From the IMG/VR virus record IMGVR_UViG_3300010413_000187, positions 1-24,110 of that record: a stretch of DNA of 24,110 nucleotides; one strand, 5' to 3'. Position 1 is the stretch's first letter; each line of letters opens with the position of its first letter. Source of the DNA: a virus. The position numbers and the translations under genes were made by a program. Shown here in pieces: positions 8,402-13,481 of this stretch. The notes beneath the pieces were generated by a model. That model did not search any database, was not told where the DNA came from, and was given only the letters and a program-made list of their open reading frames with translations.

Positions 8402-8935
8402 CTAACTAAACCAGAACATTGGCATCATTGGGTTAAGAGAGTTTGTGTGGAGTACAAATGCGCCAGCAAGTGGACCAGAAGCCTCAACCGTTTCTGGAAG
8501 CATATCTTCTGTAGCCCAACCGTTTATGTATGCTACCATGTTGTCAAGGTCTACTGGTATTAGAATGTATGTAGTGTTTATATGTCTCTCTGCAGGCCTG
8601 ACACACAAGCTATAGAAGTATGGGTCTTTACTGTACCGCATACGAGTAGCTTTGAAGTCTATGCCAGCGCCAGGAACATCGCTACCACCATCCCCACGTT
8701 TAGGATCAAGGTCAACGAACCAACGGCTTAATTTGTAAGGGTGATAGCCACCGAAAAGGAATTTGGTCCCTAAGATATTCCCTAGCTGGCCCGTGATTTG
8801 ATCCTCTCGGAACTTACGCACCCTCTCTTCCATGTCTGCTCTTATGTGACCAGCCCCAAGGAATGGAACCTTGTCCCCAACAGCTTTTGCGAATTTGAGT
8901 TCTGCCTCTGTTATAGGTACTTGTATTACTTTCAT
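8402..8935 (-). CDS. PD-(D/E)XK nuclease-like protein (restriction-endonuclease fold)
   Basis: Of 177 residues, the centre carries the catalytic pattern GDGGSDVPGAGIDFKATRMR: D86, then D93-F-K95, matching D...(D/E)xK. The preceding GQLGNILGTKFL with Q50 and upstream acidic residues fits the family helix. Compact phage proteins of this kind resemble restriction endonucleases or structure-specific nucleases. The target cannot be read. The frame extends upstream through tRNA-Ala, so ATG 8935 is the only sensible start. It lies five bases past the tRNA 3' end and has no ribosome site, so the processed mRNA would be nearly leaderless. Two methyltransferases downstream make a modification-linked role possible. 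Confidence 0.78.
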   Translation of the reverse strand: MKVIQVPITEAELKFAKAVGDKVPFLGAGHIRADMEERVRKFREDQITGQLGNILGTKFLFGGYHPYKLSRWFVDLDPKRGDGGSDVPGAGIDFKATRMRYSKDPYFYSLCVRPAERHINTTYILIPVDLDNMVAYINGWATEDMLPETVEASGPLAGAFVLHTNSLNPMMPMFWFS

Positions 8936-8940
8936 GATAA

Positions 8941-9013
8941 TGGAGCTGAAGGGAGTCGAACCCTTGACCTCCGCAGTGCAAGTGCGGCGCTCTCCCAACT
9001 GAGCTACAGCCCC
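8941..9013 (-). tRNA. tRNA-Ala (anticodon UGC)
   Basis: A canonical 73-nt cloverleaf: acceptor GGGGCTG/CAGCTCC with one G-U, D-arm GCTC/GAGC, anticodon arm CCGCA-CTTGCAC-TGCGG giving anticodon TGC, T-arm AAGGG-TTCGACT-CCCTT, discriminator A. CCA is not encoded. It ends the structured transcript from 9446 and precedes the nuclease gene by five bases. Confidence 0.97.
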
Positions 9014-9446
9014 AAGGCTTTTGTCGTGGCTACGCCACGCGCTGCTTACGCTGCGCGGTATATTTTTTTGTTTTGCAACTGTAACCAGTCGCACTCCCCC
9101 CTGCTGACAAAACAGGAGGGAGTTAGCAAGGCACCTATAATAAATACTAGGGCGATCCAGGTCGTTACGTGAGTGGGTAATTCTCACTAATTTACTCTAC
9201 CTTGCTACTCCTGGCCGAAGCCAACGGACGGGATTTGTGCTATGCGGTTCTCGCACCATTACACTCTGGATTTTTAACCCTTCTGAATTGATAACGCTGA
9301 CCAGATCAGCGTCGGTATATAGCCAGATCAACCGACTCCGCTTATAGCGGCAACCTCTACGCGCTTTCGCGCTGCCTGGGACTTATGGCTCTGCGTCCGT
9401 ATGTATTGACATACTGGCTTTTGTCATTGTGTTTTTTATTTTGTTG
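9014..9446 (-). ncRNA. Candidate large structured RNA upstream of tRNA-Ala (region B)
   Basis: About 430 bases hold no supportable gene but many helices. From the 5' end: 9399-9414, 9379-9398 (GGAC/GTCC), 9361-9372 (GCGC-GAAA-GCGC, GNRA-type loop), 9338-9350, 9311-9336 and 9295-9311 (both loops contain TGATCTGG), 9243-9255, 9212-9223 (UUCG loop), an 8-bp long-range stem 9124-9131/9200-9207 enclosing hairpin 9169-9187, 9093-9123 (11 bp), 9075-9092 (7 bp), then 9038-9058 and 9026-9038 just before the tRNA. Two stems contain G-U pairs that would be A-C mismatches on the plus strand, supporting the minus strand as the RNA. It has its own promoter. I cannot assign it to a known large phage RNA class. 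Confidence 0.6.
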
Positions 9447-9452
9447 TCGTCC

Positions 9453-9481
9453 ATTATACGCAAAAAGTACCATTTTGTCCA
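9453..9481 (-). promoter_or_regulatory. Sigma70-like promoter (P2) for structured region B and tRNA-Ala
   Basis: TGGACA (9476-9481), 17-bp spacer and TATAAT (9453-9458), within GCGTATAATGG, on the minus strand. Expected start near 9446. The -35 differs from consensus at one base. The same GCGTATAATG block is present in the other two leftward promoters. Confidence 0.82.
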
Positions 9482-9514: not shown

Positions 9515-9895
9515 TCATTTACCGAGTGGATACCAAACCTGTTTCCCTAGCTTTGTTGCTGTCAACACGACTGGATCGCCCTTGTCAAATGCCATTACCG
9601 CATCAGATGATTCTACCATAAACCTCATGTAATCGCCCTTCGACGACGATGTTACCGTTATCTCTTTCGCCACATTTAGAGACTCTGGCTCAAACCCCAT
9701 ATCTGGCGAAAACATTTGTACTGAGATTCCGACTATTGATGCCATCGATGCTATTTTTATACCAGGAGCGGTATATCCAGTAAGGATAATTAGTTCGTCG
9801 CCGTACTTTTTAAGCGCAGAGCGCAAAGCCTTTTCAAGTACATCCTGTCGCTCTGCTGTCCATTTTATGGCTGATACCAATATTTTCCTGCTCAT
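9515..9895 (-). CDS. Possible SLOG/DUF2493-like Rossmann-fold protein
   Basis: This 126-residue protein alternates strands and helices as in a small Rossmann fold: MSRKILVSAIKWTAERQ, then DELIILTGYTAPGIKIASMA (a glycine-containing turn after a strand), VGISVQMFSP, and SSDAVMAFDKGD near the end. The pattern resembles SLOG/DUF2493 proteins that bind nucleotides or nucleotide-derived signals, but the match is weak. ATG 9895 follows AAGGGGTG; an in-frame start 21 codons upstream would overlap the promoter. It is the first leftward gene after the divergent control region, so it should be expressed early. Confidence 0.55.
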   Translation of the reverse strand: MSRKILVSAIKWTAERQDVLEKALRSALKKYGDELIILTGYTAPGIKIASMASIVGISVQMFSPDMGFEPESLNVAKEITVTSSSKGDYMRFMVESSDAVMAFDKGDPVVLTATKLGKQVWYPLGK

Positions 9896-9923
9896 CGTGG
9901 CACCCCTTGTTTGGTTATATACC

Positions 9924-9972: not shown

Positions 9973-10001
9973 TTGACTTTATAAATTCGATTTGTTATAA
10001 T
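9973..10001 (+). promoter_or_regulatory. Rightward promoter for the packaging and structural genes
   Basis: TTGACT (9973-9978), 17-bp spacer and TATAAT (9996-10001). The expected start is near 10008, only about three bases before the terminase ATG at 10011, so the mRNA should be essentially leaderless. It is back-to-back with P1; the -35 boxes are 20 bp apart. Confidence 0.88.
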
Positions 10002-12743: not shown

Positions 12744-13481
12744 ATGACAGCAGACGTTAGCTTGTGCATGGTAACGTACAACAAGCTTCCGTTTTTGAAA
12801 AGGTCTATTGAGGCTGTATTGAATAGCCTTGACAGCGAGAAGCTATATGAGTTTATTATCTTTGACAATGCCAGCGACGATGGGACTGCTGAGTGGTTAT
12901 CTTTGCTCTCCCATGTTTGTCCTGAGAATGTAAAGCTAGAGATTGTTACTGGCGATCAGAATTATGGGTTAAATGCATACGGGATGATTGTTCCAAAAAC
13001 TACTGCGGAGATAGTTGTTACGGTTGATGATGATATATTTGACATAGCTCCGCCAATGTGGGAAGAACTTTTTGAACGTGTTCTATTTAACAAGTTTAAT
13101 GGAAGGCAGTTTGGGTATGTTAGCACGGACACAATGAACGCGGATGGCGGAAGATACAATGGCAGTCCAATAGGGTACGCTAATCTAGGAGAGCTAACCG
13201 TAGAGATTGGGCCTGCTGGCGGGTGGTTTGCTGCTACTACTCAAGATGTTATAGAGGATGTTGGTGGATTCCATACAGGGAAGGGCGCGATGCACCTTGA
13301 GGATTTGGACTTTCAAACCCGTGTATGGAACAAGGGGTTTCTTGTTGGTACACTCATGAATATCAGTGTGTTACACGCAAGGTCTCCAAGGTATTACAAA
13401 GAACTAGGTCGGGAGGACACGTATATAGAGAAAATGCGATTAGCCTCATTAGAAGGGATCACTTTGGAGCCAATCGCTTGA
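12744..13481 (+). CDS. Glycosyltransferase family 2 (GT-A fold)
   Basis: The protein transfers a sugar from a nucleotide-sugar donor. GT2 landmarks are present: VSLCMVTYNKLPFLKRSIEA at the N-terminus, FDNASDDGT, the metal-binding VDDDI, GPAGGWFAAT (acceptor region) and HLEDLDFQTRVWNKG, whose ED may be the catalytic base region. At 245 residues it is a minimal GT-A catalytic domain without a membrane anchor. It starts one base after the preceding stop, within the packaging genes, where glycosyltransferases are unusual. Targets could be a virion protein, host surface glycan or modified DNA base; the sequence does not decide. Confidence 0.9.
   Translation: MTADVSLCMVTYNKLPFLKRSIEAVLNSLDSEKLYEFIIFDNASDDGTAEWLSLLSHVCPENVKLEIVTGDQNYGLNAYGMIVPKTTAEIVVTVDDDIFDIAPPMWEELFERVLFNKFNGRQFGYVSTDTMNADGGRYNGSPIGYANLGELTVEIGPAGGWFAATTQDVIEDVGGFHTGKGAMHLEDLDFQTRVWNKGFLVGTLMNISVLHARSPRYYKELGREDTYIEKMRLASLEGITLEPIA

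Follow-up and report, generated by a model that had tools for sequence, protein, structure and literature searches.

The window analysed here is the 24,110-base IMG/VR virus record IMGVR_UViG_3300010413_000187, in which two gene blocks diverge. The leftward block carries radical SAM, dUTPase, methyltransferase and nuclease genes; the rightward block is a packaging and structural one, with terminase (phrog_675), portal and major head protein genes. Near the point of divergence, the minus strand presents in order a promoter-like site, about 430 gene-free bases and a tRNA-Ala(TGC) gene (Table 1). The divergent region also holds two more strong sigma70-like promoters back to back, one on the plus strand (9973-10001) and one on the minus strand (9952-9924), with 11 and 12 of 12 matches, respectively; only a few leader bases separate the rightward one from its ORF. 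On the minus strand, 5' of the gene-free bases, lies a small protein gene (9515-9898), 46-51% conserved in relatives; it has no clear match in Pfam, and isolate phages yielded no relative. Elsewhere in the window, the reading frame between terminase and portal (12744-13481, plus strand) has a weak glycosyltransferase similarity that falls below curated cut-offs. At positions 1-1309 of the minus strand is a reading that we take, by eye, to be ribonucleotide-reductase-like: frame 0 stops near 1136 (MKFASSDIAKNILQKRYY...YAIMSDS*) and the following frame carries on (ADGGLYACFVLGIEDN...), a break that a frameshift, a small deletion or an assembly error could explain.

Four related IMG/VR contigs (L002, L003, L004 and L005) were found via the terminase. 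Since a 13.6-kb stretch around the locus is identical in L002 and L004, though their datasets differ (3300010413 and 3300009509), three distinct sequences are available beyond the window, and the comparisons below use four distinct sequences from one phage clade. In all four contigs the element lies directly upstream of tRNA-Ala, in one copy per record and with a core identity among relatives of about 76-80% (BLAST). A coding reading of 9015-9446 was ruled out, as no frame is open throughout the four aligned sequences on either strand. The gene directly after the tRNA (8402-8935, minus strand) is far less constant: it matches at 63% in L003 and at 21% in L002, and an unrelated ORF takes its place in L005. 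A GGYDC...IDVKTT motif in the L002 version may, we presume from its look, be PD-(D/E)XK-like.

Blastn in phages returned only tRNA matches or chance matches of 25-30 bp, and blastn in plasmids did not find the element. Pattern searches of viral contigs and genome contigs, together with terminase-based scans, had as true matches the same four contigs; the candidate carriers L013, L014, L015, L016 and L017 were rejected on reading as chance coding matches. Three isolate phages whose terminases are remote relatives were scanned with the covariance model R1, which had no match. Within these phage, plasmid, genome and viral-contig searches, the element is provisionally restricted to one clade.

Table 1. 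Features of the structured RNA locus in the window (positions of the 24,110-base record)
Feature	Position	Strand	Remarks
Sigma70-like promoter TGGACA-17-TATAAT	9453..9481	-	11/12 consensus matches; putative transcription start ~9446
Structured RNA, ~430 nt	9015..9446	-	same locus in L002/L004, L003 and L005; alignment z -7.9; covariation
P1 hairpin	9407..9426	-	UGACA/UGUCA; 3 double-changed pairs
K1 loop-loop contact	P1 loop GCCAG 9418-9414 with P3 loop CUGGC 9326-9322	-	20/20 cells paired; 3 double-changed pairs
Conserved block: GCCAUAAGNCCCAGGCAGC, P2a (GCGC-GAAA-GCGC), GUAGAGGUUGCC	9349..9389	-	near-invariant; P2a one double-changed pair
P2b hairpin	9338..9350	-	CCGC/GCGG; 2 double-changed pairs
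P3 hairpin	9311..9336	-	GUCGGU/ACCGAC; 3 double-changed pairs
P4 hairpin with H-type pseudoknot PK4	9282..9310	-	each 2 double-changed pairs, 20/20 cells
Invariant AUCCAGAGU	9263..9271	-	6-bp complementarity to CUGGAU in all four
Variable linker	9234..9262	-	length and sequence unlike in every member
3' domain: UCCCGUCCGUU, P6, P7, P8, CGUAACGACCUGGAUCG, P9	9124..9233	-	11 double-changed pairs (model with P10), 0/500 shuffles
P7 long-range helix	9207-9198/9133-9124	-	covaries
P10, C/U-rich strand with invariant G6 run	9094..9122	-	all four pair; G.U changes
P12 and P13 tandem hairpins adjoining tRNA	9026..9057	-	P12 4 double-changed pairs; P13 pairs in all four
tRNA-Ala(TGC)	8940..9014	-	directly 3' of the structured RNA in window and all relatives

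The preliminary description had proposed a large structured RNA of a dozen helices beside the tRNA, over a range (9014-9481) that takes in the promoter; the RNA proper runs from about 9446 to 9015. That proposal is borne out by a covarying fold at the same locus in the relatives. From the four sequences RNAalifold predicts 68 pairs, of which 19 have double changes, and in column shuffles that preserve gaps and conservation the element has a z of -7.9, a value that none of 100 shuffles reaches; the same procedure gives -0.8 for a coding stretch of the terminase and -0.3 for a neighbouring gene. In the helices selected for testing, 218 of 220 cells are paired and 27 pairs have changed on both sides (0 of 20,000 independent shuffles reach this), a count that favours high pairing as the strands were picked by hand; the column-shuffle z and a fixed-structure count of the 3' domain are less exposed to this choice. 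The fixed-structure count finds 13 double-changed pairs in the 5' domain and 11 in the 3' domain (0 of 500 shuffles), and the number of paired cells is roughly halved or worse when partners are slid by 1-3 columns. Lack of covariation, which had been named as grounds for giving up the RNA, was not seen; covariation is strong.

We take the minus strand to be the RNA strand, a conclusion supported by the orientation of promoter and tRNA, by G.U cells and by single-sequence folding. For the window, single-sequence folding of 9015-9450 gives z values of -5.2 on the minus and -2.2 on the plus strand, and the minus strand is preferred in three of the four members. Two stems had earlier been noticed to use G-U pairs only on the minus strand; the hand-chosen helices, which were chosen as pairing on that strand, have 17 G.U and 0 A.C cells. 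The alignment z, at -7.9 versus -7.5, does not separate the strands. The RNA's own promoter, also noticed earlier, is real as a consensus match and its position is kept in the relatives. L005 has a perfect TTGACA-17-TATAAT there with P1 starting 7 nt past the -10 element, a spacing from which transcription would begin at P1; L002 and L003 have weaker versions with 8/12 matches (TCAACA or GCGACA-17-TAGTAT).

The 5' domain contains two contacts, K1 and PK4, that come in addition to the helices described before. K1 joins the loops of P1 and P3, and its letters change in concert from phage to phage: GCCAG/CUGGC in the window, GUUGG/CCAAC in L002, GCUGG/UCAGC in L003 and GCUGG/CCAGC in L005. It is fully paired at one offset only. 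The stem of P1 varies likewise, with UGAUA/UAUCA and CAACA/UGUUG in relatives; as MAFFT shifts the P1 loop of the window by one base, the automatic count is too low for both P1 and K1. In PK4, the P4 loop (UCUGG 9305-9301 in the window) pairs with a downstream segment (UCAGA 9286-9282), the variants being UCUGG/UCUAA/UCUGC for the loop and UCAGA/UUAGA/GCAGA for its partner. To judge by complementarity, AUCCAGAGU could pair with the invariant CUGGAU (within 9169-9153); neither segment varies in any member.

In the 3' part of the RNA, the long-range 8-bp stem noted previously corresponds to P7. Helix ends of P7, P9 and P10 vary among members. P12 and P13, next to the tRNA, have almost wholly changed in sequence between members and both hairpins are kept. 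Other features that had drawn attention in the window are incidental, because they are not conserved. The GNRA and UUCG tetraloops are present in the window, as GAAA and UUCG, and are replaced in relatives by AUGUA/ACAU and by UUUU/AUUU/UUCCA, so that only the helices are conserved there. The repeat TGATCTGG does occur in the adjacent loops of P3 and P4, the P3-loop copy being half of K1 and the P4-loop copy half of PK4; lacking conservation in the relatives, it was rejected as a functional repeat. A mobile element with target duplication was rejected too, since the 10-bp flanking direct repeat GACAAAAGCC is missing from relatives.

To place the RNA among known families, Rfam cmscan was run at gathering thresholds on the window and relatives, and with the E limit raised to 10 for each of the four members. 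No match to GOLLD (RF01998), ROOL or any leader family was found in the four members at E up to 10, and group I and II introns, RNase P RNA and tmRNA had no gathering match, the only trace being a 6-bit tmRNA fragment (E 3.6). As no member matches any Rfam family, the RNA is not assigned to GOLLD, ROOL or another known family, and the suggestion that it may form a new class is supported, with strong covariation as well. It is phage-borne and near tRNA genes, as is GOLLD; its complex fold, backed by covariation, extends over hundreds of nucleotides, and with K1 and PK4 it has a covarying kissing loop and pseudoknot, as large ornate phage ncRNAs do. It is probably a new, smaller relative, in style, of GOLLD and ROOL; it lies in the same kind of place and, by analogy, would work like them.

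The likenesses and differences can be stated for each. ROOL is also a phage or prophage RNA often found near tRNA genes and with no known protein partner, and the two share many helices, pseudoknots, covarying kissing loops and a variable linker. Unlike the window RNA, at about 430 nt, the solved form of ROOL has 659 nt (PMC12286853); its conserved sequences are others. ROOL forms a homo-octameric RNA nanocage. GOLLD (RF01998) is likewise encoded by phages near tRNAs and has a linker, kissing loops and a 3' domain that is conserved (PMC12286853), but it often exceeds 800 nt (PMC12286853) and has no sequence or covariance-model match to it. The abundant ncRNA of ICP1 and the lncRNAs of phage K are further large phage ncRNAs, which their authors compared with GOLLD and ROOL (PMC7567579, PMC9241854). 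The ICP1 RNA differs in being about 800 nt long, in a phage without tRNAs, and both it and the phage K RNAs are known by RNA-seq (PMC7567579, PMC9241854), whereas the window RNA is read from genomic letters.

On balance, we consider it fairly probable that the element is a stand-alone folded phage ncRNA of about 430 nt, co-transcribed with tRNA-Ala, released by RNase P and accumulating in the manner of GOLLD and ROOL. Leftward transcription would start at its own sigma70-type promoter, with the RNA as the 5' part of the transcript and tRNA-Ala following. As no promoter or terminator match was found at the RNA-to-tRNA junction, the 3' end would be provided by RNase P: in maturing the 5' end of the tRNA, the enzyme would free an RNA ending at about 9015. 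This RNA is predicted to fold into a 5' domain of P1-P4, held by K1 and PK4, then a variable linker, a P7-based 3' domain and two hairpins, and by analogy with GOLLD and ROOL it would most likely accumulate in the course of infection, as a stable RNA or RNA complex.

Because the RNA stands at the start of the leftward gene block, it may have a role in cis, as a processive antiterminator of the type of HK022 put or as an attenuator sensing a ligand or a tRNA. The promoter would drive the RNA, tRNA-Ala and closely packed minus-strand genes with no terminator match between, yet we think such a leader unlikely: a riboswitch or leader would call for a conserved downstream gene, and the gene that comes next after the tRNA varies from phage to phage across the four; a tRNA that needs excision sits between RNA and genes; no terminator-like expression platform was found at the RNA 3' end; and there is one copy per record and no Rfam leader family match. 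A second copy, as in putL and putR, has no room, given the few leader bases of the rightward promoter. That the gene after the tRNA has been swapped while promoter, RNA and tRNA stayed together speaks for a stand-alone RNA rather than for a leader specific to one gene.

The other readings appear more remote. At about 10 kb, beside the RNA, GC skew and the direction of the genes both switch; this and the invariant G6 run would suit an RNA that serves replication as a primer or at the origin, in the way of ColE1 RNA II, forming an RNA-DNA hybrid near the divergence of the gene blocks and processed to a primer. We find this improbable: the skew switch tracks gene direction, P10 holds the G-run in base pairs, neither iterons nor a site for a replication protein were seen, and the tRNA directly downstream is left without explanation. 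In phi29 pRNA, much as with K1, covariation preserves the complementarity of two loops within a single RNA, and a terminase is encoded about 1.3 kb away from the window RNA, so that a packaging RNA might be imagined whose K1 loops, conserved and covarying, assemble a ring on it. This has still less to recommend it: the enzyme (phrog_675, phrog_15) belongs with the ordinary large terminases rather than with phi29-type ATPases, and the window RNA, without a pRNA match in Rfam scans or in sequence, is much larger than phi29 pRNA. Least credible is that the tRNA precursor has here an ordinary 5' leader, processed off and folded by chance; the RNA does end at the tRNA, but compensatory covariation over most helices and the pseudoknot-type contacts have already refuted a chance fold, and the tRNA-Leu of the window (6635-6560) follows its preceding ORF after about 13 bases, without such a leader.

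Kissing loops build the RNA-only cages of GOLLD and ROOL, two phage RNAs that often lie near tRNAs, and a covarying loop contact of GOLLD, first seen by sequence analysis, proved intermolecular (PMC12286853). By that precedent K1 could act within or between molecules: it may be purely intramolecular, or it may, by analogy, pair in trans between copies and yield a homo-oligomer. We put forward only tentatively, and as rather doubtful, the idea of a compact ornate RNA class that homo-oligomerises via P1-loop/P3-loop trans pairing, a third, unrelated RNA-only assembly beside a tRNA; were it true, the RNA would join GOLLD and ROOL with a size no more than about two thirds that of ROOL. Phages repeatedly evolve unrelated elaborate RNAs beside tRNA genes, none of those compared here having a known function. 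With its helices defined and a single, specific loop-loop contact, an independent example of smaller size would help to find what the phage gains from them and whether self-assembly recurs among such phage RNAs.
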